NCBI GenBank assembly: GCA_963971285.1
Contig: OZ020251.1
Location: 2,976,001 to 3,040,000 of the forward strand
Length of the DNA: 64,000 bases
Direction: 5' to 3'
DNA from: Astropecten irregularis
Lineage: Eukaryota; Echinodermata; Asteroidea; Paxillosida; Astropectinidae
Positions 1 to 35,545 of the stretch are shown here, piece by piece. Every line of letters starts with the position of its first letter. The stretch's first letter is position 1. The notes under the pieces were generated by a model. That model was not told where the DNA came from. It worked only from the letters and a program-made list of their open reading frames with translations, and searched no databases. Made by a program: the position numbers and the translations under genes.

Positions 1-958
1 GTGAACGTCCTTGTAACGTTCTAAAAGTAAGACCAGATATTATTTATCGCGTCAATTTTGGTTAATAACTAACCAAAATATTCTAGTAAATAACCTAAAT
101 TTTTCTAATAATTTCAGTGAACGTCCTTGTAACGTTCTAAAAGTAAGACCAGATATTATTTATCGCGTCAACTTTGGTTAATAACTAACCAAAATATTCT
201 AGTAAATAACCTAAATTTTTCTAATAATTTCAATGAACGTCCTTGTAACGTTCTTAAAGTAAGACCCGATATTATTTATCGCGTCAACTTTGGTTAATAA
301 CTAACCAAAATATTCTAGTAAATAGCCTAAATTTTTCTAAAAATTTCAGTGAACGTCCTTGTAACGTTCTAAAAGTAAGACCAGATATTATTTATCGCGT
401 CAACTTTGATTAATAACTAACCAAAATATTCTAGTAAATAACCTAAATTTTTCTAATAATTTCAGTGAACGTCCTTGTAACGTTCTAAAAGTAAGACCAG
501 ATATTATTTATCGCGTCAACTTTGGTTAATAACTAACCAAAATATTCTAGTAAATAACCTAAATTTTTCTAATAATTTCAGTGAACGTCCTTGTAACGTT
601 CTAAAAGTAAGACCAGACATTATTTATCGCGTCAACTTTGGTTAATAACTAACCAAAATATTCTAGTAAATAACCTAAATATTTCTAATAATTTCAGTGA
701 ACGTCCTAGTAACGTTCTAAAAGTAAGACCAGATATTATTTATCGCGTCAACTTTGGTTAATAACTAACCAAAATATTCTAGTAAATAACCTAAATTTTT
801 CTAATAATTTCAGTGAACGTCCTTGTAACGTTCTAAAAGTAAGACCAGATATTATTTATCGCGTCAACTTTGGTTAATAACTAACCAAAATATTCTAGTT
901 AATTACCTAAATTTTTCTAATAATTTCAGTGAACGTCATTGTAACGTTCTAAAAGAAA
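1..958. repeat. 116-bp satellite array (first block)
   Basis: About eight head-to-tail copies of a 116-bp AT-rich monomer, with units beginning at 1, 117, 233 and so on; the array runs in from the left edge. Each monomer carries two short dyads. One is GAACGT...ACGTTC around the phrase CCTTGTA. The other is TTGGTTA...TAACCAA with loop ATAAC. Monomers differ mostly by single substitutions. The last unit changes 'gtcc' to 'gtca' and leads into the linker, a transition also seen at several other array ends. Confidence 0.95.
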
Positions 959-1102
959 AACCGGATATAACCCAGTAGAAAGAAGGGATAATGCTTAATG
1001 GAGACAAGAAAAAGTGGTAGTAAAAATTACAAACGTAAAAGTTGCACACAAAAGCTATATTCTACGAGGTGCATCTACGCTGCTTTGCAGTGCTCATTAA
1101 CG
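959..1102. repeat. Linker between the 116-bp and 46-bp arrays
   Basis: Non-tandem block that begins with the phrase GACCGGATATAACCCAGTAG and runs to 'taacgctgcttcttgc', where the 46-bp array starts. Close copies occur at about 7,111-7,254, 13,230-13,369, 17,953-18,097, 20,971-21,115, 25,034-25,179, 29,978-30,117 and 35,069-35,235. A related form without a following 46-bp array lies at about 2,455-2,600. This suggests that the 46-bp array expanded inside an ancestral linker. No coding potential seen. Confidence 0.8.
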
Positions 1103-1632
1103 CTGCTTCTTGCTGTCTAGTTTTATTAAATTGCATCGAGCATCGAAGGTGCTTCTTGCTGTCTAGTTTAATTAAATTGCATCGAGCATCAAAGGTGCTT
1201 CTTGCTGTCTAGTTTTATTAAATTGCATCGAGCATCAAAGGTGCTTTTTGCTGTCTAGTTTTATTAAATTGCATCGAGCATCAAAGGTGCTTCTTGCCAT
1301 CTAGTTTTATTAAATTGCATCGAGCATCAAAGGTGCTTCTTGCTGTCTAGTTTTATTAAATTGCATCGAGCATCAAAGGTGCTTCTTGCCATCTAGTTTT
1401 ATTAAATTGCATCGAGCATCAAAGGTGCTTCTTTCTGTCTAGTTTTATTAAATTGCATCGAGCATCAAAGGTGCTTCTTGCTGTCTAGTTTTATTAAATT
1501 GCATCGAGCATCAAAGGTGCTTCTTGCTGTCTAGTTTTATTAAATTGCATTGAGCATCAAAGGTGCTTCTTGCTGTCTAGTTTTATTAAATTGCAACGAG
1601 CATCAAAGGTGCTTCTTGCTGTCTAGTTTTAT
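1103..1632. repeat. 46-bp satellite array, copy 1
   Basis: About 11.5 tandem copies of a 46-bp monomer reading 'aaaggtgcttcttgctgtc', then 'tagttttattaaattgcat', then 'cgagcatc'. Variants include TGCCATC for TGCTGTC and TTGAGC for TCGAGC. The array ends by switching to 'ttttattttattgaatg', the same exit sequence used by the other 46-bp arrays. Confidence 0.95.
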
Positions 1633-1677
1633 TTTATTGAATGTAATTTTCATGTTTTCATGAAAAAATCACATGCT

Positions 1678-1749
1678 GGCTCAGGTGGGATTCGAACCCA
1701 CGACCTCCTGCTTACTAGTGCAGGTGCCATACCGCTAGGCCACCGTGCT
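1678..1749 (-). tRNA. tRNA-Thr(AGT)-like Pol III cassette, copy 1 (probable pseudogene or SINE head)
   Basis: On the minus strand there is an A-box-like TGGCCTAGCGG and a perfect B box GGTTCGAATCC with a five-pair T stem (GTGGG/CCCAC). The anticodon stem is perfect (CCTGC/GCAGG) and encloses CTAGTAA, the loop of tRNA-Thr(AGT), but with one extra A. The acceptor stem (AGCACGG against CTGAGCC) pairs poorly. A T6 run about ten bases past the 3' end fits a Pol III terminator. It is tRNA-shaped and possibly transcribed, but unlikely to be a working tRNA. A second B-box-like phrase (GATTCGATTC) lies just upstream on the same strand. Confidence 0.6.
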
Positions 1750-1812
1750 AGCTGGGGTCTGCGGGGTGAATCGAATCCAGTATCGCGGCGAGTACCGCAC
1801 TGCATACTTGAA

Positions 1813-2289
1813 AATGAAAAAGTTTTTGATGAAAGAGTTCATGAACGGAACAAAGAACAGAACGTGGAATGGAACCAAGAACGAAACATGGAACGGAACG
1901 TGGATTGGAACACAGAACAAAATGTAGAAAAAACACAGAACGGAACACAGAGTGGAACGCAGAAAGGGATGCACAACAGAATGCACGACGGAATACAGAA
2001 CATTTGAACGCGGAGCGGAACGCAGTATACGGAATGCACAGATCGGAACGAGATTAGAACACGGATATCGGATAATGAAGCACGAAAAAAACACGGGATG
2101 ACACATGCAGAATAATCGCTACCTTCCGCATCCCATTCCTCTTCCCATTCTACGTTCAGTTCCGTGTTTAATTCCACCTTCTGCTCCAAGATCTTTTCCA
2201 AGATTCATTCCAAGTACCGTTAAAAGTTCCATTCCACGATTTGTTCCATCTACCATTCATTGACTCTTTCATCACTACCTTATTCATCT
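1813..2289. repeat. Foldback block built on a degenerate GAAYNN hexamer, copy 1
   Basis: The left half is a degenerate 6-bp repeat of type GAAYNN (gaacgg, gaacaa, gaatgg). The right half is its diverged reverse complement. The tips match well: GATGAAAGAGTTCATGAA on the left against GATGAAAGAGTCAATGAA read from the right. The whole block could fold into an imperfect hairpin of about 480 bp. The 6-bp period leaves several overlapping frames open on both strands, giving apparent proteins of 60-124 residues with a four-residue NxEx rhythm. I regard these as by-products of the repeat. Confidence 0.8.
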
Positions 2290-2670
2290 CCATGGGGGCC
2301 TATGTCAATAAACCTGGTAGCAGTCTACGTCCAAGCGAAAAGACCGCTAAGCCCGGTAGACAGCCTACTTCCCGGTGGAAAGACCGGTAAGCCCAGTAGA
2401 TAGGACTCTTCCCGGCAGTAAGACCGGATTAGCCCAGTAGAAAGATTGGCTTATGCCTAATGGAGACAAGAAAAGCTTGCTAGTAAAAATTACAAACGTA
2501 AAAGTTGCACGCAAGAGCTATATTCTACGAGTTGCATCTACGCTGCTTTGCATTGCTCACTAACGCTGCTTACTTAGTTCTAGAAGGAATAGAGAAAGTT
2601 AGAGAGCAGCAGACATCAGAGAAAAGACTGATGTTTAATGATTCTACTGCTTCACCTTATTATTATTAAA
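2290..2670. repeat. Three ~40-bp 'aagaccgg' repeats plus related linker
   Basis: Three diverged copies of a ~40-bp phrase (AAGACCG, a short spacer, GCCCAGTAGA, then TTCCCGG) lie at about 2,337-2,455. A linker related to 959-1,102 follows, and then a stretch unique to this context (GTTCTAGAAGGAATAG to ACTGATGTTTAATG) that precedes the 123-bp element. The same block recurs at about 19,384-19,764, 22,402-22,782, 27,692-28,072 and 32,204-32,584. The phrase AAGACCGGAT-n-CCCAGTAGA also ends each 116-bp array, so it marks module boundaries. Confidence 0.75.
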
Positions 2671-2793
2671 CTGGCAGACCTTTGCCTAGACCAGAAACAA
2701 GGAGTGACCCTCTTCACTGGTCTGTCGCAAAGGTTGGGGTAACAACGCCAGGCGGAAAACTGGATAAGTTCTCCTACCACTCAAATAACTAAG
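2671..2793. repeat. 123-bp structured element, copy 1
   Basis: It is preceded by a short (TTA)n tract and can form three nested stems: CTGGC/GCCAG, ACCTTTGC/GCAAAGGT and AGACCAG/CTGGTCT. A near-palindrome follows (GGATAAGTTCTCC here, GGAGAAGTTCTCC in some copies) and the element ends at CTAAG. Read on the minus strand it would end in an (AAT)n-like tail, as some SINEs do. I do not recognise the family. Confidence 0.8.
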
Positions 2794-2841
2794 TTTTTAT
2801 TTTATTGAATGAAATTTTCATATCTGCATTTTAAATATAGA

Positions 2842-5800
2842 TTTATCGCGTCAACTTTGGTTAATAACTAACCAAAATAATATAGTAAATAACCTAAAAT
2901 TTTCTAATAATTTAAGTGAACGTCCTTGTAACGTTCTAAAAGTAAGACCAGATATTATTTATCGCGTCAACTTTGGTTAATAACTAACCAAAATATTCTA
3001 GTAAATAACCTAACATTTTCTAATAATTTAAGTGAACGTCCTTGTAACGTTCTAAAAGTAAGACCAGACATTATTTATCGCGTCAACTTTGGTTAATAAC
3101 TAACCAAAATATTCTAGTTAATAACCTAAATATTTCTAATAATTTCAGTGAACGTCCTTGTAACGTTCTAAAAGTAAGACCCGATATTATTTATCGCGTC
3201 AACTTTGGTTAATAACTAACCAAAATATTCTAGTAAATAGCCTAATTTTTTCTAATAATTTCAGTGAACGTCCTTGTAACGTTCTAAAAGTAAGACCAGA
3301 TATTATTTATCGCGTCAACTTTGATTAATAACTAACCAAAATATTCTAGTAAATAACCTAAATTTTTCTAATAATTTCAGTGAACGTCCTTGTAACGTTC
3401 TAAAAGTAAGACCAGATATTATTTATCGCGTCAACTTTGGTTAATAACTAACCAAAATATTCTAGTAAATAACCTAAATTTTTCTAATAATTTCAGTGAA
3501 CGTCCTTGTAACGTTCTAAAAGTAAGATCAGACATTATTTATCGCGTCAACTTTGGTTAATAACTAACCAAAATATTCTAGTAAATAACCTAAATATTAC
3601 TAATAATTTCAGTGAACGTCCTTGTAATGTTCTAAAAGTAAGACCAGATATTATTTATCGCGTCAACTTTGGTTAATAACCAAAATATTCTAATAAATAA
3701 CCTAAATTTTTCTCATAATTTTAGTGAACGTCCTTGTAACGTTCTAAAAGTAAGACCAGATATTATTTATCGCGTCAACTTTGGTTAATAACTAACCAAA
3801 ATAATCTAGTAAATAACCTAAAATTTTCTAATAATTTAAGTGAACGTCCTTGTAACGTTCTAAAAGTAAGACCAGATATTATTTATCGCGACTTTGGTTA
3901 ATAACTAACCAAAATATTCTAGTAAATAACCTAAATTTTTCTAATAATTTCAGTGAACTCCCTTGTAACGTTCTAAAAGTAAGACCAGATATTATTTATC
4001 GCGTCAACTTTGGTTAATAACTAACCAAAATATTCTAGTTAATAACCTAAATATTTCTAATAATTTCAGTGAACGTCCTTGTAACGTTCTAAAAGTAAGA
4101 CCCGATATTATTTATCGCGTCAACTTTGGTTAATAACTAACCAAAATATTCTTTTAAATAGCCTAAATTTTTCTAATAATTTCAGTGAACGTCCTTGTAA
4201 CGTTCTAAAAGTAAGACCAGATATTATTTATCGCGTCAACTTTGATTAATAACTAACCAAAATATTCTAGTAAATAACCTAAATTTTTCTAATAATTTCA
4301 GTGAACGTCCTTGTAACGTTCTAAAAGTAAGACCAGATATTATTTATCGCGTCAACTTTGGTTAATAACTAACCAAAATATTCTAGTAAATAACCTAAAT
4401 TTTTCTAATAATTTCAGTGAACGTCCTTGTAACGTTCTAAAAGTAAGATCAGACATTATTTATCGCGTCAACTTTGGTTAATAACTAACCAAAATATTCT
4501 AGTAAATAACCTAAATATTACTAATAATTTCAGTGAACGTCCTTGTAACGTTCTAAAAGTAAGACCAGATATTATTTATCGCGTCAACTTTGGTTAATAA
4601 CTAACCAAAATATTCTAATAAATAACCTAAATTTTTCTCATAATTTTAGTGAACGTCCTTGTAACGTTCTAAAAGTAAGACCAGATATTATTTATCGCGT
4701 CAACTTTGGTTAATAACTTACCAAAATATTCTAGTAAATAACCTAAATTTTTCTAATAATTTCAGTGAACGTCCTTGTAACGTTCTAAAAGTAAGACCAG
4801 ATATTATTTATCGCGTCAACTTTGGTTAATAACTAACCAAAATATTCTAGTAAATAACCTAAAATTTTCTAATAATTTAAGTGAACGTCCTTGTAACGTT
4901 CTAAAAGTAAGACCAGATATTATTTATCGCGTCAATTTTGGTTAATAACTAACCAAAATATTCTAGTAAATAACCTAAATTTTTCTAATAATTTCAGTGA
5001 ACGTCCTTGTAACGTTCTAAAAGTAAGACCAGATATTATTTATCGCGTCAACTTTGGTTAATAACTAACCAAAATATTCTAGTAAATAACCTAAATTTTT
5101 CTAATAATTTCAATGAACGTCCTTGTAACGTTCTTAAAGTAAGACCCGATATTATTTATCGCGTCAACTTTGGTTAATAACTAACCAAAATATTCTAGTA
5201 AATAGCCTAAATTTTTCTAATAATTTCAGTGAACGTCCTTGTAACGTTCTAAAAGTAAGACCAGATATTATTTATCGCGTCAACTTTGATTAATAACTAA
5301 CCAAAATATTCTAGTAAATAACCTAAATTTTTCTAATAATTTCAGTGAACGTCCTTGTAACGTTCTAAAAGTAAGACCAGATATTATTTATCGCGTCAAC
5401 TTTGGTTAATAACTAACCAAAATATTCTAGTAAATAACCTAAATTTTTCTAATAATTTCAGTGAACGTCCTTGTAACGTTCTAAAAGTAAGACCAGATAT
5501 TATTTATCGCGTCAACTTTGATTAATAACTAACCAAAATATTCTAGTTAATAACCTAAATATTTCTAATAATTTCAGTGAACGTCCTTGTAACGTTCTAA
5601 AAGTAAGACCAGACATTATTTATCGCGTCAACTTTGGTTAACAACTAACCAAAATATTCTTGTAAATAACCTAAATATTTCTAATAATTTCAGTGAACGT
5701 CCTAGTAACGTTCTAAAAGTAAGACCAGATATTATTTATCGCGTCAACTTTGGTTAATAACTAACCAAAATATTCTAGTAAATAACCTAAATTTTTCTAA

Positions 5801-7110
5801 TAATTTCAGTGAACGTCCTTGTAAAGTTCTAAAAGTAAGACCAGATATTATTTATCGCGTCAACTTTGGTTAATAACTAACCAAAATATTCTAGTTAATT
5901 ACCTAAATTTTCTAATAATTTCAGTGAACGTCCTTGTAACGTTCTAAAAGTAAGACCAGATATTATCTATCTCGTCAACTTTGGTTAATAACTAACCAAA
6001 ATATTCTAGAAAATAACCTAAATTTGTCTAATAATTTCAATGAACGTCCTTGTAACGTTCTAAAAGTAAGACCAGATATTATTTATCGCGTCAACTTTGG
6101 TTAATAACTAACCAAAATATTCTAGTAAATAACCTAAATTTGTCTAATAATTTCAGTGAACGTCCTTGTAACGTTCTAAAAGTAAGACCAGATATTATCT
6201 ATCTCGTCAACTTTGGTTAATAACTAACCAAAATATTCTAGAAAATAACCTAAATTTGTCTAATAAGTTCAGTGAACGTCCTTGTAACGTTCTAAAAGTA
6301 AGACCAGATATTATTTATCGCGTCAACTTTGGTTAATAACTAACCAAAATATTCTAGTTAATAACCTAAATTTTCCTAATAATTTCAGTGAACGTCCTTG
6401 TAACGTTCTAAAAGTAAGACCAGATATTATTTATCGCGTCAACTTTGGTTAATAACTAACCAAAATATTCTAGTAAATAACCTAAATTTTTCTAATAATT
6501 TCAGTGAACGTCCTTGTAACGTTCTAAAAGTAAGATCAGACATTATTTATCGCGTCAACTTTGGTTAATAACTAACCAAAATATTCTAGTAAATAACCTA
6601 AATATTACTAATAATTTCAGTGAACGTCCTTGTAACGTTCTAAAAGTAAGACCAGATATTATTTATCGCGTCAACTTTGGTTAATAACTAACCAAAATAT
6701 TCTAATAAATAACCTAAATTTTTCTCATAATTTTAGTGAACGTCCTTGTAACGTTCTAAAAGTAAGACCAGATATTATTTATCGCGTCAACTTTGGTTAA
6801 TAACTAACCAAAATAATCTAGTAAATAACCTAAAATTTTCTAATAATTTAAGTGAACGTCCTTGTAACGTTCTAAAAGTAAGACCAGATATTATTTATCG
6901 CGTCAACTTTGGTTAATAACTAACCAAAATATTCTAGTAAATAACCTAAATTTTTCTAATAATTTCAGTGAACGTCAATGTAACGTTCTAAAAGTAAGAC
7001 CAGATATTATTTATCGCGTCAACTTTGGTTAATAACTAACCAAAATATTCTAGTAAATAACCTAAAATTTTCTAATAATTTAAGTGAACGTCATTGTAAC
7101 GTTCTAAAAG
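2842..7110. repeat. 116-bp satellite array (longest block in the window)
   Basis: About 37 monomers. Variant monomers recur in the same order within the block: 'gacccgat', 'tttgatta', 'agatcagacatt', 'ttctcataattttag', 'tatctatctcg'. This shows amplification by multi-monomer segments rather than one unit at a time. For example, the run of variants at about 3,180-3,830 repeats at about 4,070-4,700. Confidence 0.95.
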
Positions 7111-7254
7111 AAAGACCGGATATAACCCAGTAGAAAGAAGGGATAATGCTTAATGGAGACAAGAAAAAGTGGTAGTAAAAATTAAAAACGTAAAAGTTGC
7201 ACGCAAAAGCTATATTCTACGAGTTGCATCTAAGCTGCTTTGCATTGCTCACTC

Positions 7255-8152
7255 AGGTGCTTCTTGCTGTCTAGATTTATTAAATTGCATCGAGCATCAA
7301 AGGTGCTTCTTGCTGTCTAATTTTATTAAATTGCATCGAGCATCAAAGGTGCTTCTTGCTGTCTAGTTTTATTAAATTGCATTGAGCATCAAAGGTGCTT
7401 CTTGCTGTCTAGTTTTATTAAATTGCATCGAGCATCAAAGGTGCTTCTTGCTGTCTAGTTTTATTAAATTGCATCGAGCATCAAAGGTGCTTCTTGCTGT
7501 CTAGTTTTATTAAATTGCATTGAGCATCAAAGGTGCTTCTTGCTGTCTAGTTTTATTAAATTGCATTGAGCATCAAAGGTGCTTCTTGCTGTCTAATTTT
7601 ATTAAATTGCATTGAGCATCAAAGGTGCTTCTTGCTGTCTAATTTTATTAAATTGCATCGAGCATCAAAGGTGCTTCTTGCTGTCTAGATTATTAAATTG
7701 CATCGAGCATCAAAGGTGCTTCTTGCTGTCTTATTTTATTAAATTGCATTGAGCATCAAAGGTGCTTCTTGCTGTCTAATTTTATTAAATTGCATCGAGC
7801 ATCAGAGGTGCTTCTTGCTGTCTAGTTTTATTAAATAGCATCGAGCATCAAAGGTGCTTCTTGATGTCTAGTTTTATTAAATTGCATCGAGCATCAAAGG
7901 TGCTTCTTGCTTTCTAGTTTTATTAAATTGCATTGAGCATCAAAGGTGCTTCTTGCTGTCTAGTTTTATTAAATTGAATCGAGCATCAAAGGTGCTTCTT
8001 GCTGTCTAGTTTTATTAAATTGCATCGAGCATCAATGGTGCTTCTTGCTGTCTAGTTTTATTAAATTGCATTGAGCATCAAAGGTGCTTCTTGCTGTCTA
8101 GTTTTATTAAATTGCAACAAGCATCAAAGGTGCTTCTTGCTGTCTAGTTTTA
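7255..8152. repeat. 46-bp satellite array, copy 2
   Basis: About 19.5 monomers, including one short unit ('tctagattattaaa') and a TGATGTC variant. Unlike copies 1 and 4-7 it is not followed by the tRNA-like cassette. It exits straight into 'ttttattttattgaatg' and a single 116-bp unit. Confidence 0.95.
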
Positions 8153-8192
8153 TTTTATTGAATGTCATTTTCATGTCTGCATTTTAAATATA

Positions 8193-8300
8193 GATTATCG
8201 CGTCAACTTTATTTAATAACTAACCAAAATATTCTAGTAAATAACCTCAATTTTTTTAATAATTTCAGTGAACGTCATTGTAACGTTCTAAAAGTAAGAC
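8193..8300. repeat. Isolated 116-bp unit plus short boundary block
   Basis: One diverged 116-bp monomer ('actttatttaataac'), followed to about 8,427 by the boundary phrase GACCGAATAAAGCCCAGTAG, a stretch reading 'gggctaatgcttaaccctaag' and a (TTA)n tract. The second duplicate is at 14,308-14,415. Confidence 0.8.
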
Positions 8301-8427
8301 CGAATAAAGCCCAGTAGAAAGATGGGCTAATGCTTAACCCTAAGATTTTCTTGTCTCCATTAATCTGTGGTACCTTTTATCTAAACGTTGCTTAATAAAA
8401 CAAATTATTATTACTATTATTATTAAA

Positions 8428-8550
8428 CTGGCAGACCTTTGCCTAGACCAGAAACAAGGAGTGACCCTCTTCACTGGTCTGTCGCAAATGTTGGGGTAAC
8501 AACGCCAGGCGGAAAACTGGAGAAGTTCTCCTACCCCTCAAATAACTAAG
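8428..8550. repeat. 123-bp structured element, copy 2
   Basis: It has the perfect GGAGAAGTTCTCC palindrome. The second stem carries one mismatch (GCAAATGT). Confidence 0.8.
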
Positions 8551-8621
8551 TTTTTATTTTTTTGAATGTCCTTTTCATGTCTGCATTTTAAATATAGATT
8601 TATCACGTCAACTTTGGTTAA

Positions 8622-8997
8622 AGGGATTGCATACGTTTGGTAATTTGAGCCTACTCTTTGTTTCAAACCAATATAATTGTGTATATATACCATAAAACTA
8701 ACCTGTGAAAGTTTCACTTCAAAAGGTGGTAGCGTTTTTGAGATTTTGGCTACAAACTAGAGCGGTTATTTCACGCCAGATAACAGTAAGTCAATAGCTG
8801 AGAAGCGTTACGGCCATAACGCTTCTCAGATTCGTAATTTTTGGAGATAAAAAGTGACATATTTTTCCATAACCGCGGTACTTCGAATTGAAAGTTTCTC
8901 AATATGCATTATACTATCCAAAGCAGCTGTAGTTCTCACCAAGTAAGTTTTTATTGCCATAAATTTTCAGAGTCATTACCAAACGTATGCAATGCCT
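8622..8997. mobile_element. 376-bp TTAA-type MITE inserted in a 116-bp unit, copy 1
   Basis: Terminal inverted repeats of about 23 bp begin AGGGATTGCATACGTTTGG on the left; the right end differs by one base in the first part. The target TTAA is duplicated at 8,618-8,621 and 8,998-9,001. Removing the element restores the satellite phrase TTGGTTAATAACTAACC, so it inserted into the loop side of the monomer's TTGGTTA dyad. An internal perfect hairpin lies at 8,798-8,829 (arm CTGAGAAGCGTTA, loop of 6). TTAA target choice fits the piggyBac superfamily. No transposase is present. Confidence 0.9.
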
Positions 8998-9098
8998 TTA
9001 ATAACTAACCAAAATATTCTAGTAAACAACCTCATTTTTTCTTATAATTTCAGTGAACGTCATTGTTACGTTCTAAAAGTAAGACCGAATATAGCCCA

Positions 9099-10183: not shown

Positions 10184-10249
10184 AATATGTGGTACTTTTT
10201 ATCAAAATGGTGCTTAATTAACCCAATTATTATTATTATTATTATTAAA

Positions 10250-10372
10250 CTGGCAGACCTTTGCCTAGACCAGAAACAAGGAGTGACCCTCTTCACTGGT
10301 CTGTCGCAAAGGTTGGGGTAACAACGCCAGGCGGAAAACTGGATAAGTTCTCCTACCCCTCAAATAACTAAG
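10250..10372. repeat. 123-bp structured element, copy 3
   Basis: All three nested stems are intact. Preceded by a (TTA)7-like tract. It sits just past the right end of the 1.1-kb transposon. Confidence 0.8.
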
Positions 10373-10421
10373 TTTTTATTTTATTGAATGAAATTTTCAT
10401 ATCTGCATTTTAAATATAGAT

Positions 10422-10622
10422 TTTTCGCGTCAACTTTGGTTAATATAATAACTAACCAAAATATTCTAGTAAATAACCTCAATTTTTCTAATAATTTTCT
10501 GCAATTTAAATATAGATTTATCGCGTCAACTTTGGTTAATAACTAACCAAAATATATTCTAGTAAATAACCTCAATTTTTCTAATAATTTCAGTGAACGT
10601 CATTGTAACGTTCTAAAATTAA
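10422..10622. repeat. Two disrupted 116-bp units
   Basis: The first unit is cut short after 'ctaataattttctgc' and followed by a second entry of the exit sequence 'tttaaatatagatttatcgcg'. Both have small TA insertions ('ttaatataataac', 'aaaatatattc'). A boundary block (GACCGAATATAGCCCAGTAG) and a (TTA)n tract follow to 10,752. Confidence 0.8.
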
Positions 10623-10752
10623 GACCGAATATAGCCCAGTAGAAAGATGGGCTAATGCTTAACCCTAAGCTTTTCTTGTCTCCATTAATCTGTGGTACTT
10701 TTTATCTTAATGTTGCTTAATTAACCAAATTATTATTATTCTTATTATTAAA

Positions 10753-10875
10753 CTGGCAGACCTTTGCCTAGACCAGAAACAAGGAGTGACCCTCTTCACT
10801 GGTCTGTCGCAAAGATTGGGGTAACAACGCCAGGCGGAAAACTGGAGAAATTCTCCTACCCCTGAAATAACTTAG
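10753..10875. repeat. 123-bp structured element, copy 4
   Basis: The second stem has one mismatch (GCAAAGAT) and the end reads CTTAG instead of CTAAG. Confidence 0.8.
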
Positions 10876-10921
10876 TTTTTATTTTATTGAATGTATTTTT
10901 CATATCTGCATTTTAAATTTA

Positions 10922-22905: not shown

Positions 22906-22953
22906 TTTTTATTTTATTGAATGAAATTTTCATATCTGCATTTTAAATATAGA

Positions 22954-25033: not shown

Positions 25034-25179
25034 TAAGACCGGATATAACCCAGTAGAAAGAAGGGATAATGCTTAATGGAGACAAGAAAAAGTGGTAGTA
25101 AAAATTACAAACGTAAAAGTTGCACGCAAAAGCTATATTCTACGAGGTGCATCTACGCTGCTTTGCATTGCTCATTAAC

Positions 25180-27030
25180 GCTGCTTCTTGCTGTCTAGTT
25201 TTATTAAATTTCATCGAGCATCAAAGGTGCTTCTTGCTGTCTAGTTTAATTAAATTGAATCGAGCATCAAAGGTGCTTCTTGCTGTCTAGTTTTATTAAA
25301 TTGCATCGAGCATCAAAGGTGCTTCTTGCTGTCTAGTTTTATTAAATTGCATCGAGCATCAAAGGTGCTTCTTGCTGTCTAGTTTTATTAAATTGCATCG
25401 AGCATCAAAGGTGCTTCTTGCTGTCTAGTTTTATTAAATTGCATCAAGCATCAAGATCAAAGGTGCTTCTTGCTGTCTAGTTTTATTAAATTGCATCGAG
25501 CATCAAAGGTGCTTCTTGCTGTCTAGTTTTATTAAATTGCATCGAGCATCAAAGGTGCTTCTTGCTGTCTAGTTTTATTAAATTGCATCGAGCATCAAAG
25601 GTGCTTCTTGCTGTCTAGTTTTATTAAATTGCATCGAGCATCAAAGGTGCTTCTTGCTGTCTAGTTTTATTAAATTGCATCGAGCATCAAAGGTGCTTCT
25701 TGCTGTCTAGTTTTATTAAATTGCATCAAGCATCAAGATCAAAGGTGCTTCTTGCAGTCTAGTTTTATTAAATTGCATCGAGCATCAAAGGTGCTTCTTG
25801 CTGTCTAGTTTTATTAAATTGCATCGAGCATCAAAGGTGCTTCTTGCTGTCTAGTTTTATTAAATTGCATCGAGCATCAAAGGTGCTTCTTGCTGTCTAG
25901 TTTTATTAAATTGCATCGAGCATCAAAGGTGCTTCTTGCTGTCTAGTTTTATTAAATTGCATCGAGCATCAAAGGTGCTTCTTGCTGTCTAGTTTTATTA
26001 AATTGCATCAAGCATCAAGATCAAAGGTGCTTCTTGCAGTCTAGTTTTATTAAATTGCATCGAGCATCAAAGGTGCTTCTTGCTGTCTAGTTTAATTAAA
26101 TTGAATCGAGCATCAAAGGTGCTTCTTGCTGTCTAGTTTTATTAAATTGCATCGAGCATCAAAGGTGCTTCTTGCTGTCTAGTTTTATTAAATTGCATCG
26201 AGCACCAAAGGTGCTTCTTGCTGTCTAGTTTTATTAAATTGCATCGAGCATCAAAGGTGCTTCTTGCTGTCTAGTTTTATTAAATTGCATCAAGCATCAA
26301 GATCAAAGGTGCTTCTTGCTGTCTAGTTTTATTAAATTGCATCGAGCATCAAAGGTGCTTCTTGCTGTCTAGTTTTATTAAATTGCATCGAGCATCAAAG
26401 GTGCTTCTTGCTGTCTAGTTTTATTAAATTGCATCGAGCATCAAAGGTGCTTCTTGCTGTCTAGTTTTATTAAATTGCATCGAGCATCAAAGGTGCTTCT
26501 TGCTGTCTAGTTTTATTAAATTGCATCGAGCATCAAAGGTGCTTCTTGCTGTCTAGTTTTATTAAATTGCATCAAGCATCAAGATCAAAGGTGCTTCTTG
26601 CAGTCTAGTTTTATTAAATTGCATCGAGCATCAAAGGTGCTTCTTGCTGTCTAGTTTTATTAAATTGCATCGAGCATCAAAGGTGCTTCTTGCTGTCTAG
26701 TTTTATTAAATTGCATCGAGCATCAAAGGTGCTTCTTGCTGTCTAGTTTTATTAAATTGCATCGAGCATCAAAGGTGCTTCTTGCTGTCTAGTTTTATTA
26801 AATTGCATCGAGCATCAAAGGTGCTTCTTGCTGTCTAGTTTTATTAAATTGCATCAAGCATCAAGATCAAAGGTGCTTCTTGCAGTCTAGTTTTATTAAA
26901 TTGCATCGAGCATCAAAGGTGCTTCTTGCTGTCTAGTTTTATTAAATTGCATCGAGCATCAAAGGTGCTTCTTGCTGTCTAGTTTTATTAAATTGCAACG
27001 AGCATCAAAGGTGCTTCTTGCTGTCTAGTT
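25180..27030. repeat. 46-bp satellite array, copy 6, with a 282-bp higher-order repeat
   Basis: About 40 monomers. Six variant monomers containing GCATCAAGCATCAAGATCAA begin at 25,441, 25,723, 26,005, 26,287, 26,569 and 26,851, exactly 282 bp apart each time (6 x 46 + 6). Most are followed by TGCAGTC in place of TGCTGTC. This is a clean six-monomer higher-order repeat. Confidence 0.95.
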
Positions 27031-27079
27031 TTATTTTATTGAATGTAATTTTCATGTTTTCATGAAAAAATCACATGCT

Positions 27080-27151
27080 GGCTCAGGTGGGATTCGAACC
27101 CACGACCTCCTGCTTACTAGTGCAGGTGCCATACCGCTAGGCCACCGTGCT
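27080..27151 (-). tRNA. tRNA-Thr-like cassette, copy 4
   Basis: B box GGTTCGAATCC as in copy 1; terminator T-run kept. Confidence 0.55.
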
Positions 27152-27214
27152 AGCTGGGGTCTGCGGGGTGAATCGAATCCAGTATCGCGGTGAGTACCGC
27201 ACTGCATACTTGAA

Positions 27215-27691
27215 AATGAAAAAGTTTTTGATGAAAGAGTTCATGAACGGAACAAAGAACAGAACGTGGAATGGAACCAAGAACGAAACATGGAACGGAA
27301 CGTGGATTGGAACACAGAACAAAATGTAGAAAAAACACAGAACGGAACACAGAGTGGAACGCAGAAAGGGATGCACAACAGAATGCACGACAGAATACAG
27401 AACATTTGAACGCGGAGCGGAACGCAGTATACGGAATGCACAGATCGGAACGAGATTAGAACGCGGATATCGGATAATGAAGCACGAAAAAAACACGGGA
27501 TGACACATGCAGAATAATCGCTACCTTCCGCATCCCATTCCTCTTCCCATTCTACGTTCAGTTCCGTGTTTAATTCCACCTTCTGCTCCAAGATCTTTTC
27601 CAAGATTCGTTCCAAGTACCGTTAAAAGTTCCATTCCACGATTTGTTCCATCTACCATTCATTGACTCTTTCATCATTACCTTATTCATCT
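27215..27691. repeat. GAAYNN foldback block, copy 4
   Basis: Shares 'cacgacagaatac' and 'gaacgcggatatc' with copy 5, so copies 4 and 5 are closer to each other than to copies 1-3. Confidence 0.8.
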
Positions 27692-28072
27692 CCATGGGGG
27701 CCTATGTCAATAAACCTGGTAGCAGTCTACGTCCAAGCGAAAAGACCGCTAAGCCCGGTAGACAGCCTACTTCCCGGTGGAAAGACCGGTAAGCCCAGTA
27801 GATAGGACTCTTCCCGGCAGTAAGACCGGATTAGCCCAGTAGAAAGATTGGCTTATGCCTAATGGAGACAAGAAAAGCTTGCTAGTAAAAATTACAAACG
27901 TAAAAGTTGCACGCAAGAGCTATATTCTACGAGTTGCATCTACGCTGCTTTGCATTGCTCACTAACGCTGCTTACTTAGTTCTAGAAGGAATAGAGAAAG
28001 TTAGAGAGCAGCAGACATCAGAGAAAAGACTGATGTTTAATGATTCTACTGCTTCACCTTATTATTATTAAA

Positions 28073-28195
28073 CTGGCAGACCTTTGCCTAGACCAGAAAC
28101 AAGGAGTGACCCTCTTCACTGGTCTGTCGCAAAGGTTGGGGTAACAACGCCAGGCGGAAAACTGGATAAGTTCTCCTACCCCTCAAATAACTAAG
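28073..28195. repeat. 123-bp structured element, copy 10
   Basis: All three stems intact. Confidence 0.8.
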
Positions 28196-28243
28196 TTTTT
28201 ATTTTATTGAATGAAATTTTCATATCTGCATTTTAAATATAGA

Positions 28244-29977
28244 TTTATCGCGTCAACTTTGGTTAATATAATAACTAACCAAAATATTCTAGTTAATAAC
28301 CTAAAATTTTCTAATAATTTAAGTGAACGTCCTTGTAACGTTCTAAAAGTAAGACCAGATATTATTTATCGCGTCAACTTTGGTTAATAACTAACCAAAA
28401 TATTCTAGTAAATAACCTAAATTTTTCTAATAATTTCAGTGAACGTCCTTGTAACGTTCTAAAAGTAAGACCAGATATTATTTATCGCGTCAACTTTGGT
28501 TAATAACTAACCAAAATATTCTAGTAAATAACCTAAATTTTTCTAATAATATTAATGAACGTCCTTGTAACGTTCTTAAAGTAAGACCCGATATTATTTA
28601 TCGCGTCAACTTTGGTTAATAACTAACCAAAATATTCTAGTAAATAGCCTAAATTTTTCTAATAATTTTAGTGAACGTCCTTGTAACATTCTAAAAGTAA
28701 GACCAGATATTATTTATCGCGTCAACTTTGATTAATAACTAACCAAAATATTCTAGTAAATAACCTAAATTTTTCTAATAATTTAAGTGAACGTCCTTGT
28801 AACGTTCTAAAAGTAAGACCAGATATTATTTATCGCGTCAACTTTGGTTAATAACTAACCAAAATATTCTAGTAAATAACCTAAATTTTTCTAATAATTT
28901 CAGTGAACGTCCTTGTAACGTTCTAAAAGTAAGACCAGATATTATTTATCGCGTCAACTTTGGTTAATAACTAACCAAAATATTCTAGTAAATAACCTAA
29001 ATATTTCTAATAATTTCAGTGAACGTCCTTGTAACGTTCTAAAAGTAAGACCAGATATTATCTATCTCGTCAACTTTGGTTAATAACTAACCAAAATATT
29101 CTAGTAAATAACCTAAATTTGTCTAATAATTTCAGTGAACGTCCTTGTAACGTTCTAAAAGTAAGACCAGATATTATTTATCGCGTCAACTTTGGTTAAT
29201 AACTAACCAAAATATTCTAGTAAATAACCTAAATTTTTCTAATAATTTCAGTGAACGTCCTTGTAACGTTCTAAAAGTAAGACCAGATATTATTTATCGC
29301 GTCAACTTTGGTTAATAACTAACCAAAATATTCTAGTTAATTACCTAAATTTTCTAATAATTTCAGTGAACGTCCTTGTAACGTTCTAAAAGTAAGACCA
29401 GATATTATCTATCTCGTCAACTTTGGTTAATAACTAACCAACATATTCTAGAAAATAACCTAAATTTGTCTAATAATTTCAGTGAACGTCCTTGTAACGT
29501 TCTAAAAGTAAGACCAGACATTATTTATCGCGTCAACTTCGGTTAATAACTAACCAAAATATTCTAGTAAATAACCTAAATATTTCTAATAATTTCAGTG
29601 AACGTCCTTGTAACGTTCTAAAAGTAAGACCAGATATTATTTATCGCGTCAACTTTGGTTAATAACTAACCAAAATATTCTAGTAAATAACCTAAATTTT
29701 TCTAATAATTTCAGTGAACGTCCTTGTAACGTTCTAAAAGTAAGACCAGATATTATTTAACGCGTCAACTTTGGTTAATAACTAACCAAAATATTCTAGT
29801 TAATTACCTAAATTTTCTAATAATTTCAGTGAACGTCCTTGTAACGTTCTAAAAGTAAGACCAGATATTATCTATCTTGTCAACTTTGGTTAATAACTAA
29901 CCAAAATATTCTAGAAAATAACCTAAATTTGTCTAATAATTTCAGTGAACGTCCTTGTAACGTTCTAAAAGTAAGAC
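28244..29977. repeat. 116-bp satellite array
   Basis: About 15 monomers. It begins with the same variant series ('aatattaatgaacg', GACCCGAT, 'tttgatta') as the array at 32,756, evidence of a third large duplication with a ~4,512-bp offset. Confidence 0.95.
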
Positions 29978-30117
29978 CGGATATAACCCAGTAGAAAGAA
30001 GGGATAATGCTTAATGGAGACAAGAAAAAGTGGTAGTAAAAATTACAAACGTAAAAGTTGCACGCAAAAGCTATATTCTACGAGGTGCATCTACGCTGCT
30101 TTGCATTGCTCATTAAC

Positions 30118-31545
30118 GCTGCTTCTTGCTGTCTAGTTTTATTAAATTGCATCGAGCATCAAAGGTGCTTCTTGCTGTCTAGTTTAATTAAATTGAATCG
30201 AGCATCAAAGGTGCTTCTTGCTGTCTAGTTTTATTAAATTGCATCGAGCATCAAAGGTGCTTCTTGCTGTCTAGTTTTATTAAATTGCATCGAGCATCAA
30301 AGGTGCTTCTTGCTGTCTAGTTTTATTAAATTGCATCGAGCATCAAAGGTGCTTCTTGCTATCTAGTTTTATTAAATTGCATCAAGCATCAAGATCAAAG
30401 GTGCTTCTTGCTGTCTAGTTTTATTAAATTGCATCGAGCATCAAAGGTGCTTCTTGCTGTCTAGTTTTATTAAATTGCATCGAGCATCAAAGGTGCTTCT
30501 TGCTGTCTAGTTTTATTAAATTGCATCGAGCATCAAAGGTGCTTCTTGCTGTCTAGTTTTATTAAATTGCATCGAGCATCAAAGGTGCTTCTTGCTGTCT
30601 AGTTTTATTAAATTGCATCGAGCATCAAAGGTGCTTCTTGCTGTCTAGTTTTATTAAATTGCATCAAGCATCAAAATCAAAGGTGCTTCTTGCAGTCTAG
30701 TTTTATTAAATTGCATCGAGCATCAAAGGTGCTTCTTGCTGTCTAGTTTTATTAAATTGCATCGAGCATCAAAGGTGCTTCTTGCTGTCTAGTTTTATTA
30801 AATTGCATCGAGCATCAAAGGTGCTTCTTGCTGTCTAGTTTTATTAAATTGCATCGAGCATCAAAGGTGCTTCTTGCTGTCTAGTTTTATTAAATTGCAT
30901 CGAGCATCAAAGGTGCTTCTTGCTGTCTAGTTTTATTAAATTGCATCGAGCATCAAAGGTGCTTCTTGCTGTCTAGTTTTATTAAATTGCATCGAGCATC
31001 AAAGGTGCTTCTTGCTGTCTAGTTTTATTAAATTGCATCAAGCATCAAGATCAAAGGTGCTTCTTGCAGTCTAGTTTTATTAAATTGCATCGAGCATCAA
31101 AGGTGCTTCTTGCTGTCTAGTTTTATTAAATTGCATCGAGCATCAAAGGTGCTTCTTGCTGTCTAGTTTTATTAAATTGCATCGAGCATCAAAGGTGCTT
31201 CTTGCTGTCTAGTTTTATTAAATTGCATCGAGCATCAAAGGTGCTTCTTGCTGTCTAGTTTTATTAAATTGCATCGAGCATCAAAGGTGCTTCTTGCTGT
31301 CTAGTTTTATTAAATTGCATCGAGCATTAAAGGTGCTTCTTGCTGTCTAGTTTTATTAAATTGCATCAAGCATCAAGATCAAAGGTGCTTCTTGCAGTCT
31401 AGTTTTATTAAATTGCATCGAGCATCAAAGGTGCTTCTTGTTGTCTAGTTTTATTAAATTGCATCGAGCATCAAAGGTGCTTCTTGCTGTCTAGTTTTAT
31501 TAAATTGCAACGAGCATCAAAGGTGCTTCTTGCTGTCTAGTTTTA
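30118..31545. repeat. 46-bp satellite array, copy 7
   Basis: About 31 monomers. The variant carrying the GATCAA-type insertion recurs at 30,379, 30,661, 31,035 and 31,363, giving spacings of 282, 374 and 328 bp (six, eight and seven monomers plus 6 bp). It is the same higher-order repeat as in copy 6, with gains of whole monomers. Confidence 0.95.
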
Positions 31546-31591
31546 TTTTATTGAATGTAATTTTCATGTTTTCATGAAAAAATCACATGCT

Positions 31592-31663
31592 GGCTCAGGT
31601 GGGATTCGAACCCACGACCTCCTGCTTACTAATGCAGGTGCCATACCGCTAGGCCACCGTGCT
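31592..31663 (-). tRNA. tRNA-Thr-like cassette, copy 5
   Basis: One base in the anticodon loop flank differs (minus strand CATTAGTAA); the AGT triplet and both promoter boxes are kept. Confidence 0.55.
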
Positions 31664-31726
31664 AGCTGGGGTCTGCGGGGTGAATCGAATCCAGTATCGC
31701 GGCGAGTACCGCACTGCATACTTGAA

Positions 31727-32203
31727 AATGAAAAAGTTTTTGATGAAAGAGTTCATGAACGGAACAAAGAACAGAACGTGGAATGGAACCAAGAACGAAA
31801 CATGGAACGGAACGTGGATTGGAACACAGAACAAAATGTAGAAAAAACACAGAACGGAACACAGAGTGGAACGCAGAAAGGGATGCACAACAGAATGCAC
31901 GACAGAATACAGAACATTTGAACGCGGAGCGGAACGCAGTATACGGAATGCACAGATCGGAACGAGATTAGAACGCGGATATCGGATAATGAAGCACGAA
32001 AAAAACACGGGATGACACATGCAGAATAATCGCTACCTTCCGCATCCCATTCCTCTTCCCATTCTACGTTCAGTTCCGTGTTTAATTCCACCTTCTGCTC
32101 CAAGATCTTTTCCAAGATTCGTTCTAAGTACCGTTAAAAGTTCCATTCCACGATTTGTTCCATCTACCATTCATTGACTCTTTCATCATTACCTTATTCA
32201 TCT
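31727..32203. repeat. GAAYNN foldback block, copy 5
   Basis: Close to copy 4; 'attcgttctaag' in the right arm is private to this copy. Confidence 0.8.
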
Positions 32204-32584
32204 CCATGGGGGCCTATGTCAATAAACCTGGTAGCAGTCTACGTCCAAGCGAAAAGACCGCTAAGCCCGGTAGACAGCCTACTTCCCGGTGGAAAGACCG
32301 GTAAGCCCAGTAGATAGGACTCTTCCCGGCAGTAAGACCGGATTAGCCCAGTAGAAAGATTGGCTTATGCCTAATGGAGACAAGAAAAGCTTGCTAGTAA
32401 AAATTACAAACGTAAAAGTTGCACGCAAGAGCTATATTCTACGAGTTGCATCTACGCTGCTTTGCATTGCTCACTAACGCTGCTTACTTAGTTCTAGAAG
32501 GAATAGAGAAAGTTAGAGAGCAGCAGACATCAGAGAAAAGACTGATGTTTAATGATTCTACTGCTTCACCTTATTATTATTAAA

Positions 32585-32707
32585 CTGGCAGACCTTTGCC
32601 TAGACCAGAAACAAGGAGTGACCCTCTTCACTGGTCTGTCGCAAAGGTTGGGGTAACAACGCCAGGCGGAAAACTGGATAAGTTCTCCTACCCCTCAAAT
32701 AACTAAG
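32585..32707. repeat. 123-bp structured element, copy 11
   Basis: All three stems intact. Confidence 0.8.
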
Positions 32708-32755
32708 TTTTTATTTTATTGAATGAAATTTTCATATCTGCATTTTAAATATAGA

Positions 32756-35068
32756 TTTATCGCGTCAACTTTGGTTAATATAATAACTAACCAAAATATT
32801 CTAGTTAATAACCTAAAATTTTCTAATAATTTAAGTGAACGTCCTTGTAACGTTCTAAAAGTAAGACCAGATATTATTTATCGCGTCAACTTTGGTTAAT
32901 AACTAACCAAAATATTCTAGTAAATAACCTAAATTTTTCTAATAATTTCAGTGAACGTCCTTGTAACGTTCTAAAAGTAAGACCAGATATTATTTATCGC
33001 GTCAACTTTGGTTAATAACTAACCAAAATATTCTAGTAAATAACCTAAATTTTTCTAATAATATTAATGAACGTCCTTGTAACGTTCTTAAAGTAAGACC
33101 CGATATTATTTATCGCGTCAACTTTGGTTAATAACTAACCAAAATATTCTAGTAAATAGCCTAAATTTTTCTAATAATTTTAGTAAACGTCCTTGTAATG
33201 TTCTAAAAGTAAGACCAGATATTATTTATCGCGTCAACTTTGATTAATAACTAACCAAAATATTCTAGTAAATAACCTAAATTTTTCTAATAATTTAAGT
33301 GAACGTCCTTGTAACGTTCTAAAAGTAAGACCAGATATTATTTATCGCGTCAACTTTGGTTAATAACTAACCAAAATATTCTAGTAAATAACCTAAATTT
33401 TTCTAATAATTTCAGTGAACGTCCTTGTAACGTTCTAAAAGTAAGACCAGATATTATTTATCGCGTCAACTTTGGTTAATAACTAACCAAAATATTCTAG
33501 TAAATAACCTAAATATTTCTAATAATTTCAGTGAACGTCCTTGTAACGTTCTAAAAGCAAGACCAGATATTATTTATCGCGTCAACTTTGGTTAATAACT
33601 AACCAAAATATTCTAGTAAATAACCTAAATTTTTCTAATAATTTCAGTGAACGTCCTTGTAACGTTCTAAAAGTAAGACCAGATATTATTTATCGCGTCA
33701 ACTTTGGTTAATAACTTACCAAAATATTCTAGTTAATAACCTAAATTTTTCTAATAATTTCAGTGAACGTCCTTGTAACGTTCTAAAAGTAAGAACAGAT
33801 ATTATCTATCTCGTCAACTTTGGTTAATAACTAACCAAAATATTCTAGTAAATAACCTAAATTTGTCTAATAATTTCAGTGAACGTCCTTGTAACGTTCT
33901 AAAAGTAAGACCAGATATTATTTATCGCGTCAACTTTGGTTAATAACTAACCAAAATATTCTAGTAAATTACCTAAATTTTTCTAATAATTTCAGTGAAC
34001 GTCCTTGTAACGTTCTAAAAGTAAGACCAGATATTATTTATCGCGTCAACTTTGGTTAATAACTAACCAAAATATTCTAGTTAATTACCTAAATTTTCTA
34101 ATAATTTCAGTGAACGTCCTTGTAACGTTCTAAAAGTAAGACCAGATATTATCTATCTCGTCAACTTTGGTTAATAACTAACCAACATATTCTAGAAAAT
34201 AACCTAAATTTGTCTAATAATTTCAGTGAACGTCCTTGTAACGTTCTAAAAGTAAGACCAGATATTATTTATCGCGTCAACTTTGGTTAATAACTAACCA
34301 AAATATTCTAGTAAATAACCTAAATTTTTCTAACAATTTCAGTGAACGTCCTTGTAACGTTCTAAAAGTAAGACCAGATATTATTTATCGCGTCAACTTT
34401 GGTTAATAACTAACCAAAATATTCTAGTTAATTACCTAAATTTTCTAATAATTTCAGTGAACGTCCTTGTAACGTTCTAAAAGTAAGACCAGATATTATC
34501 TATCTCGTCAACTTTGGTTAATAACTAACCAACATATTCTAGAAAATAACCTAAATTTGTCTAATAATTTCAGTGAACGTCCTTGTAACGTTCTAAAAGT
34601 AAGACCAGATATTATTTATCGCGTCAACTTTGGTTAATAACTAACCAAAATATTCTAGTAAATAACCTAAATTTTTCTAATAATTTCAGTGAACGTCCTT
34701 GTAATGTTCTAAAAGTAAGACCAGATATTATTTATCGCGTCAACTTTGGTTAATAACTTACCAAAATATTCTAGTTAATAACCTAAATTTTTCTAATAAT
34801 TTCAGTGAACGACCTTGTAACGTTCTAAAAGTAAGACCAGATATTATCTATCTCGTCAACTTTGGTTAATAACTAACCAAAATATTCTAGTAAATAACCT
34901 AAATTTTTCTAATAATTTCAGTGAACGTCCTTGTAACGTTCTAAAAGTAAGACCAGATATTATTTATTGCGTTAACTTTGGTTAATAACTAACCAAAATA
35001 TATTCTAGTAAATAACCTCAATTTTTCGAATAATTTCAGTGAACGTCATTGTAACGTTCTAAAAGTAA
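32756..35068. repeat. 116-bp satellite array
   Basis: About 20 monomers. A two-to-three-monomer group with 'accaacatattctagaaaat' and TATCTATCTCG repeats inside it. The last monomer has the 'aaaatatattc' expansion also seen near 10,550. Confidence 0.95.
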
Positions 35069-35272
35069 GACCGGATATATCCCAGTAGAAAGAAGGGATA
35101 ATGCTTTATGGAGAAAAAAAAAAGTGGTAGTAAAAAACGTAAAAGTTGCACGCAAAAGCTATATTCTACAAGTTGCATCTACGCTGCTTTGCATTGCTCA
35201 CTAACGCTGCTTACTTAGTTCCAGAAGGAATAGAGAAAGTTATTATTATTATTATTATTAAATTGGCAGACC

Positions 35273-35395
35273 TTTGCCTAGACCAGAAACAAGGAGTGAC
35301 CCTCTTCACTGGTCTGTCGCAAAGGTTGGGGTAACAACGCCAGGCGGAAAACTGGAGAAGTTCTCCTACCCCTCAAATAACTAAGTTTTTATTTT
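35273..35395. repeat. 123-bp structured element, copy 12
   Basis: It begins TTGGC in place of CTGGC, leaving a G-U pair in the outer stem. Preceded by a (TTA)n tract; perfect GGAGAAGTTCTCC. Confidence 0.8.
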
Positions 35396-35430
35396 ATTGA
35401 ATGTAATTTTCATGTCTGCATTTTAAATAT

Positions 35431-35545
35431 AGATTTATCGCGTCAACTTTGGTTAATAAGTAACCAAAATATTCTAGTAAATAGTCTCAATTTTTCTAAT
35501 TATTTCAGTGAACGTCATTGTAACGTTCTAAAAGTAAGACTGGTA
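35431..35545. repeat. Last 116-bp unit, right edge of the macrosatellite
   Basis: A single diverged monomer ending 'gttctaaaagtaagactgg'. Satellite sequence stops here and does not reappear. Confidence 0.85.

Follow-up and report, generated by a model that had tools for sequence, protein, structure and literature searches.

The first 35,545 positions of a 64,000-nucleotide stretch of the genome of the starfish Astropecten irregularis (hereafter the window, C15:2,976,001-3,040,000) belong to a ~83-kb tandem array, whose left edge lies near C15:2,927,934, 48 kb outside the window, and whose right edge lies near window position 35,545. By the features that we tested, namely tandem units of several kilobases and high identity between units, this array is a composite macrosatellite. 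It is a known kind of repetitive DNA, and what is unusual is its combination of two independent minisatellites (monomers of 116 and 46 bp), passenger modules and duplication of the whole locus; no cellular function is indicated. We consider it probable that the macrosatellite grew by unequal exchange in an ancestral locus and was then spread by duplication of whole segments. The start of the array, the outer bounds common to ~21 loci of this family and the likely seeds of its monomers are not visible from the window alone, and they emerged from comparison with the 475.7-Mb assembly (168 contigs). In this assembly, contigs C9, C10, C12, C15 and C19 are chromosomes 3, 4, 6, 8 and 12. Of four genetic codes tried on the mitochondrial contig (16,335 bp), only the echinoderm code gave a COX1 with the near-universal stretch STNHKDIG, and the tRNAs found there follow each other as in starfish. 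Counts from our DNA searches of the genome are lower bounds, as only the best candidates were scored. Literature searches found no description of satellites in A. irregularis, nor any title on such arrays among papers on satellites and centromeres of starfish; neither 'repeat' nor 'centromer' occurs in the main text of its genome note, which reports 22 chromosomes (PMC11480709).

The usual unit of the array runs from a 116-bp array through a link into a 46-bp array, and from there through a tRNA-like sequence, a foldback, 40-bp repeats, a second link, a short spacer, a hairpin element and a tail into the next 116-bp array. Within window positions 1-35,078, Tandem Repeats Finder resolved eight arrays of the 116-mer, which hold 8 to 37 copies at 95-97% matches, and seven of the 46-mer. 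The latter run from 11.5 to 39.5 copies, in agreement with the range of about 11 to 40 units given for them in a sequence-only reading of the window. Self-BLAST likewise confirmed its count of five units with the tRNA-like/foldback module and two without, the module being present after 5 of the 7 46-bp arrays, and a query with the 156 bp at window 2635-2790 recovered the hairpin element 12 times in the window, with match lengths of 133-156 bp. The two monomers had been described as unrelated, and their similarity is indeed at shuffle level (on the two strands, 472 and 301 of 500 shuffles reach at least that score); we accordingly reject kinship between them. The repeats are not due to chance, since a 42-base core of the 116-mer has 5,969 genome matches with at most 3 mismatches and a 22-base core of the hairpin element has 492 with at most 2, against none for the reversed and control cores. 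The fixed order of alternation stands as the usual order, but the claim that it always holds was too strong, with exceptions in the window and on C9, C12 and C15. The final window unit (35,060-35,433) has no 46-bp array, window 8,155-10,922 and 14,270-17,037 form a different composite that contains inserted elements, C12:16,290,001-16,300,000 consists of 86 copies of the 116-mer with no 46-mer, and some units near C15 4.47 Mb pass directly from the 46-mer to the hairpin element, the tRNA/foldback part being missing. With these exceptions, the proposal of a composite macrosatellite expanding at several scales is borne out by the monomer arrays, a six-monomer repeat, a 6,115-bp tandem duplication and the duplication of whole loci.

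At the smaller of these scales, one of three 46-bp arrays tested carries a six-monomer higher-order repeat, with an identity of 0.992 at lag 6 versus 0.936-0.941 at lags 1-5 and 7-11, and the signal is weak, unclear or absent in the other two and in the three 116-bp arrays tested. At a larger scale, a tandem duplication with a period of 6,115 bp occupies window ~7.1-17 kb, where 4,742 bp align unbroken at 99.58%. Within it, an insertion with inverted ends (AAGGGATTGCATACGTTTGG...) interrupts the hairpin of a 116-mer at window 8,622-8,997 and 14,737-15,112, and the final 116-mer of the C12 16.374-Mb locus holds, at the equivalent position of the monomer, the end of apparently the same element. 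The spacing of the hairpin elements on either side of the insertion is 1,822 bp in both window copies, as compared with 1,445 bp and 1,423 bp at the corresponding places at C15 2.932 and 4.018 Mb, a shortfall of about the insertion length. Since the window copies share the longer spacing and the other C15 copies are shorter, the insertion probably arose before the 6.1-kb duplication but after the window copies had split from those at C15 2.932 and 4.018 Mb.

Both monomers likely have surviving seeds. For the 46-mer, this would be a 43-bp stretch of the leader, the sequence that adjoins the left end of these arrays: it contains TGCTTTGTATTGTACACTAACACTGCTTCCCGCTGTCTAGTTT, identical at 34 of 43 positions to the junction between the link and the first 46-mer (score 46, versus at most 27 in 500 shuffles). 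For the 116-mer, it would be a lone copy near C12:8,157 kb, comprising one hairpin element, a tail and one 116-mer, which matches window 35,240-35,543 over 308 bp at 95.1%, adjoins (TTA)n and lies outside all 21 locus spans described below; this copy could represent an old seed or, alternatively, a later derivative of an array. A diverged, bounded locus at C10:20.30-20.36 Mb has a 46-bp array after its leader, and link, 40-bp repeats and a partial 116-mer before its terminal domain; the layout therefore probably predates the spread of the family.

Of the passenger modules, the tRNA-like stretch scores 46.9-50.4 bits against the Rfam tRNA model (cut-off 29) in all five window units that carry it. 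A functional tRNA gene, which should have a 7-nt anticodon loop and a readable anticodon, was rejected: the loop has 8 nt, and ARAGORN assigned no amino acid to the copies that it reports. In 13 distinct rows from C15 and C19, A- and B-box-like motifs, judged against the usual consensus, are mostly retained, and TTTTTT follows downstream in 12 (TTTTGT in the other). The module is best called a tRNA-derived sequence and, judging from these motifs, might still be transcribed by RNA polymerase III (Pol III). The foldback has arms of ~160 bp that are 71% complementary, and thus shows the long inverted arms and internal tandem repeats typical of foldback transposons; a 521-nt stretch folds far better than shuffled sequence (z = -5.1, 0 of 100). 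A tRNA-derived SINE would combine Pol III boxes with dispersed copies flanked by target-site duplications; a genome search with the tRNA/foldback module (best 40 of 2,179 candidates scored) listed no dispersed copy of the tRNA-like part, and placed the listed foldback matches exclusively in satellite loci on C15 and C19. The hairpin element also folds better than shuffles on both strands (+, z = -3.2, 0 of 200; -, z = -2.9, 2 of 200), and for single monomers the advantage over shuffles is slight or nil (116-mer, z = -2.0, 5 of 200; 46-mer, z = +0.6, 145 of 200). Neither the monomers nor the hairpin element matched a ribozyme or any other known RNA in a permissive Rfam scan of window 1,000-3,200, which found only tRNA above the gathering score, and this idea was rejected.

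On C15, the same module order recurs with different copy numbers at 3.994-4.060 Mb, in an array that mirrors that of the window, and at 4.455-4.475 Mb; two stretches of C19 show it as well. A 1,831-bp query spanning link, 46-mers, tRNA/foldback module, 40-bp repeats, second link, hairpin element and tail further gave unbroken matches of 87-88% on C10, C12 and C19, and thus the two satellites do not lie mostly apart elsewhere in the genome. Using 1.76 kb from the right of the window array as a query (best 40 of 1,212 candidates scored), we found the first ~660 bp of a terminal domain adjoining arrays on C9, C10, C12, C15 and C19. A leader query from the mirrored C15 array, minus strand (38 of 38 candidates scored), located the leader at the opposite array end, on five contigs. 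The two occur in pairs: downstream of 21 of the 22 leaders, at 25.6-123.2 kb, lies a terminal of matching polarity, which uses all 21 counted terminals, while 2,000 random placements, with pairing allowed within 125 kb, paired a mean of 0.26 and at most 3 of the 22 leaders. The leader at C9:17,494,728 has no terminal among the matches listed. The resulting 21 spans sum to 1.54 Mb on five of the 22 chromosomes; satellite sequence was seen in 18 of them, and in 9 of 11 aligned terminals the last 116-mer joins the terminal domain at the identical base. The terminal count includes three C10 terminals despite their identity of only 76-77%, and leaves out retrotransposon-part matches (C11, C10 4.6 Mb), short pieces on C10, C12, C17, C19 and C21, and second 77% copies in three spans (C12:9,504,799, C15:4,490,941 and C15:4,360,770); leaders split by insertions (C15 2.92, C12 18.64 Mb) were entered once each. 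At the left end of the window locus, an additional leader copy is interrupted by a ~5.5-kb insertion (C15:2,921,936-2,927,420), whose inverted ends agree perfectly for 120 bp or more.

Homology does not stop at these bounds. A 4-kb query from outside the leader matches beside 20 of the 21 leaders at other loci, where contiguous or closely spaced pieces of 87-98% identity extend 0.5-3.5 kb past the bound, and 6 of the 11 aligned loci share several hundred more bases past the terminal, including, by eye, part of a reverse-transcriptase-like frame. Because homology continues past the bounds without a common end in the 0.5-3.5 kb compared, duplication of large segments is the plain reading. The constant polarity, the two constant bounds, the 21 paired copies on five chromosomes and the terminal domains that are 99.4-99.8% identical on three chromosomes would also suit the interior of a very large mobile element (~50-120 kb or more), transposing as a block in fixed polarity with the satellites as cargo. 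If true, this would be a satellite-laden giant mobile unit with recent jumps and satellites still expanding, and it would explain the near-identical C10, C12 and C19 terminals. We nevertheless consider it unlikely, as no outer end is shared in the ~0.5-3.5 kb of homology past the bounds, and open frames of at least 120 aa within window 1-35,545 are confined to the tRNA/foldback module. A Helitron-type origin was considered too, and the lack of common ends is the one observation that bears on it.

Across 11 aligned terminal domains, identity over columns 320-780 ranges from 0.908 to 1.000. Those at C10:22.59, C12:16.61 and C19:15.57 Mb are identical over these columns and 0.994-0.998 over 950-975 columns, two C9 terminals agree at 98.7%, and the divergence in this domain is 1-9% for other locus pairs on different chromosomes. 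On average, the hairpin element, foldback and tRNA-like module show 98.5-99.6% identity among copies from the three C15 loci, whether taken from one locus or from two, and 93-98% when C15 copies are set against those of C19. Within and between the mirrored C15 arrays, mean identity is 0.995-0.996 for the foldback, 0.989-0.993 for the hairpin element and 0.992-0.996 for the tRNA-like module; the foldback is 0.986-0.987 identical to that of the third C15 array, and the corresponding values against C19 are 0.937-0.949, 0.965-0.984 and 0.958-0.968. The likeness of the mirrored C15 arrays needs recent duplication, exchange or allelism.

The mirrored pair is where the assembly itself comes into question. 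C15:3,011,482-3,021,682 and 3,994,200-3,984,001 are 99.55% identical in opposite orientation over 10.2 kb, and the leader sides are 98% identical over 3.5 kb. We judge both values to be in a plausible allelic range, so that the multiplicity of loci could partly be an assembly artefact of unpurged haplotypes or misplaced repeat contigs, above all in this pair. The similarity of the two C9 terminals and of the C10, C12 and C19 terminals points the same way, and according to the genome note 87 haplotypic duplications were corrected in an assembly with a contig N50 of 0.9 Mb and 786 gaps (PMC11480709). Against this, window 60,000-64,000 has no second copy on C15, from which it follows that the mirroring ends between 3.022 and 3.036 Mb; C15 3.962-3.966 Mb has only short pieces in common with the window side; the stretches read, outside which 3.966-3.984 Mb lies, contain no N; and other locus pairs on different chromosomes show the terminal divergence given above. 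An artefact of this kind is possible, though we think it rather improbable. A giant inverted palindrome across the 1 Mb between the chromosome 8 arrays was rejected, as window 60,000-64,000 is single-copy on C15 and the stretches L035 and L036 have only short pieces in common with the window side.

Several observations weigh against growth in one ancestral locus followed by whole-segment duplication, or blur its outline. The near-identical C10, C12 and C19 terminals fit recent block movement or misplaced contigs as well, and a single locus, present as two haplotypes, might underlie the mirrored arrays of chromosome 8. Three of the 21 spans (C15 4.32, C10 16.64 and C10 20.39 Mb) have no satellite among the matches listed and none was read there, and in the C10 20.30- and C12 18.62-Mb spans satellite is known from the edges only. 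Two of the 11 aligned terminals (C15 4.494 and C12 9.501 Mb) have other sequence and no 116-mer at the junction, and two short C9 stretches carry the same pieces rearranged, with extra link pieces. No common outer ends were found within the 0.5-3.5 kb compared beyond the bounds, which leaves the copying route unproven. The link separates loci poorly, at 0.925-0.943 within C15 and 0.909-0.920 to C19, values in which two kinds of link are pooled. Finally, for the three modules, identity between two C19 stretches that lie ~1 Mb from each other is just 0.962-0.972, yet 0.985-1.000 within each stretch, and homogenisation therefore appears to act by locus, not by chromosome.

The chromosomal distribution also bears on a possible segregation role for this family as a centromeric or pericentromeric satellite. 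Many loci cluster at C15 2.9-4.5, C19 14.0-16.3 and C12 16.3-17.0 Mb, and the 116-mer has two short dyads. However, a sequence of that kind is expected on all or most chromosomes, and the leader was found on only 5 contigs, as compared with 22 chromosomes; among the matches listed, the hairpin-element core was placed on C9, C10 and C12 only and the 116-mer core on C9 and C10 only. Moreover, loci lie outside the clusters (C12 9.5 and 18.6, C10 16.6 and 20.3 Mb), frames coding for an SH3 domain lie 26 kb from the array, and 4 kb midway between the chromosome 8 arrays (L035) are without satellite of this kind. A centromeric role is thus very unlikely.

We give as little credence to a reading in which the arrays fill giant introns of a multi-copy gene, with leader and terminal as paralogous exons on the opposite strand. 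Leader and terminal do share ~110 bp at 73-74% identity, with AG/GT-like edges by eye, and a further exon-like open frame was noted by eye beyond the leader. Equally by eye, the leader's frame runs into a stop codon within the terminal 'exon' of the aligned loci, and the differences between loci are not codon-like. A coding nature of leader and terminal, resting on by-eye inspection, is unsupported.

Returning to growth within a locus followed by whole-segment duplication, the relationships described above suggest the following course. An ancestral locus, bounded by leader and terminal, would have held older pieces, namely a (TTA)n-hairpin-tail-116-bp element and the 43-bp stretch related to the junction of link and 46-mer. 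The 116-bp and 46-bp pieces may then have been enlarged separately, through unequal exchange or slippage during replication, after which multi-module units of several kilobases would have been copied as blocks, carrying the tRNA-like/foldback module along. Whole loci of 26-123 kb, whose paired bounds are found in both orientations at ~21 places on five chromosomes, were presumably copied by segmental duplication or ectopic recombination. The copies seem to have been kept alike faster within than between loci, as expected of concerted evolution.

Parts of this picture have counterparts elsewhere. Ape subterminal caps similarly combine satellite blocks with duplicated spacer DNA on several chromosomes, whereas most of the loci described here are interstitial, with one leader and one terminal sequence as their bounds. 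The foldback (TU) elements of sea urchins have inverted arms of short tandem repeats and likewise come from an echinoderm, a likeness of described structure; unlike them, the foldback-module matches listed here lie inside composite arrays. Foldbacks in sea urchin are cited in the account of Tetris/TIR-220 of Drosophila virilis (PMC4079207), which, as outlined there, resembles our case in that satellite arrays arose from pieces of a repeat element, a foldback is involved, and the monomer shares 37 bp at ~80% with neighboring non-amplified sequence, as compared with 43 bp at 79% here. In Tetris/TIR-220 (PMC4079207), however, the satellite is part of the foldback itself, whereas in the starfish array the foldback is a passenger module, amplification affected two other sequences, and the locus as a whole was copied ~21 times. 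Human DXZ4-type macrosatellites, as described in PMC3081327, share the kilobase-scale tandem units of variable copy number, but each unit described here includes two minisatellites whose copy numbers are independent of each other, and such units occur at many loci. Because one satellite family is represented by ~21 bounded, alignable loci with likely seeds still visible, the order of satellite birth, nested expansion, homogenisation and spread between chromosomes is open to reconstruction.

Table. Modules of the composite array and its terminal domain in the window (positions are those of the window)
Feature	Position	Strand	Remarks
116-bp satellite array	1-968	+	8.3 copies in window; extends leftward beyond it
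Link, 116-bp to 46-bp arrays	950-1103	+	boundary phrase AAGACCGG...CCCAGTAGA
46-bp satellite array	1104-1633	+	11.5 copies
tRNA-like sequence	1675-1750	-	8-nt anticodon loop; T6 run downstream
tRNA-like sequence, other window copies	18769-18844, 21787-21862, 27077-27152, 31589-31664		
Foldback module	1800-2310	+	degenerate 12/24-bp repeats; other copies in units at 18.9, 21.9, 27.2, 31.7 kb
40-bp repeats	2335-2445	+	2.5 copies; contain boundary phrase
Second link copy	2417-2566	+	87-88% identical to first
Hairpin element	2658-2790	+	(TTA)n before it
Tail	2790-2841	+	runs into 116-bp array
116-bp array	2841-7123	+	37 copies
46-bp array	7255-8154	+	19.6 copies; no tRNA/foldback module follows
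Composite	8155-10922	+	three hairpin elements and two inverted-end insertions (~8622-8997, ~9100-10195); second copy 14270-17037
116-bp array	10923-13238	+	20 copies
46-bp array	13370-14269	+	19.6 copies; no tRNA/foldback module follows
Unit	17038-19934	+	116 x8, link, 46 x13.5, tRNA-like, foldback, 40-bp repeats, second link, hairpin element, tail
Unit	19935-22952	+	116 x9, link, 46 x13.5, full module
Unit	22953-28242	+	116 x18, link, 46 x39.5 (6 x 46 = 282-bp higher-order repeat), full module
Unit	28243-32754	+	116 x15, link, 46 x30.5, full module
116-bp array, then link	32755-35207	+	20 copies
Last unit	35208-35545	+	hairpin element, tail, one 116-bp monomer; array end
3' terminal domain	35545-36655	+	found also beside other arrays; most matches from first ~660 bp

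Beside the terminal domain, window ~36,655-43,700 holds a tyrosine-recombinase retrotransposon, which we take to be DIRS-like; its frames include a GDSL-lipase-like one (Pfam E 7.9e-10) and one of phage-integrase type (1.6e-7), and places on C11 and C10 match window 36,655-37,300 at 98-99% identity. On the minus strand at window 61,894-63,046, two frames each encode part of an SH3 domain (Pfam 7.5e-10 and 1.4e-5), presumably most like the C-terminus of PACSIN/syndapin; these probably belong to a host gene, the one that lies 26 kb from the array. Also on the minus strand, window 52,431-52,475 matches the histone 3' untranslated region (UTR) stem-loop at 35.3 bits, against an Rfam threshold of 34, and a by-eye look at the window open frames noticed no histone. 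Elsewhere in the assembly, C25:9,951,047-9,952,018 contains a COX1-like stretch with 7 TGA, perhaps a nuclear copy of mitochondrial DNA, and contig C131 carries an uninterrupted COX1 frame of 552 aa and is perhaps a bacterial contaminant.

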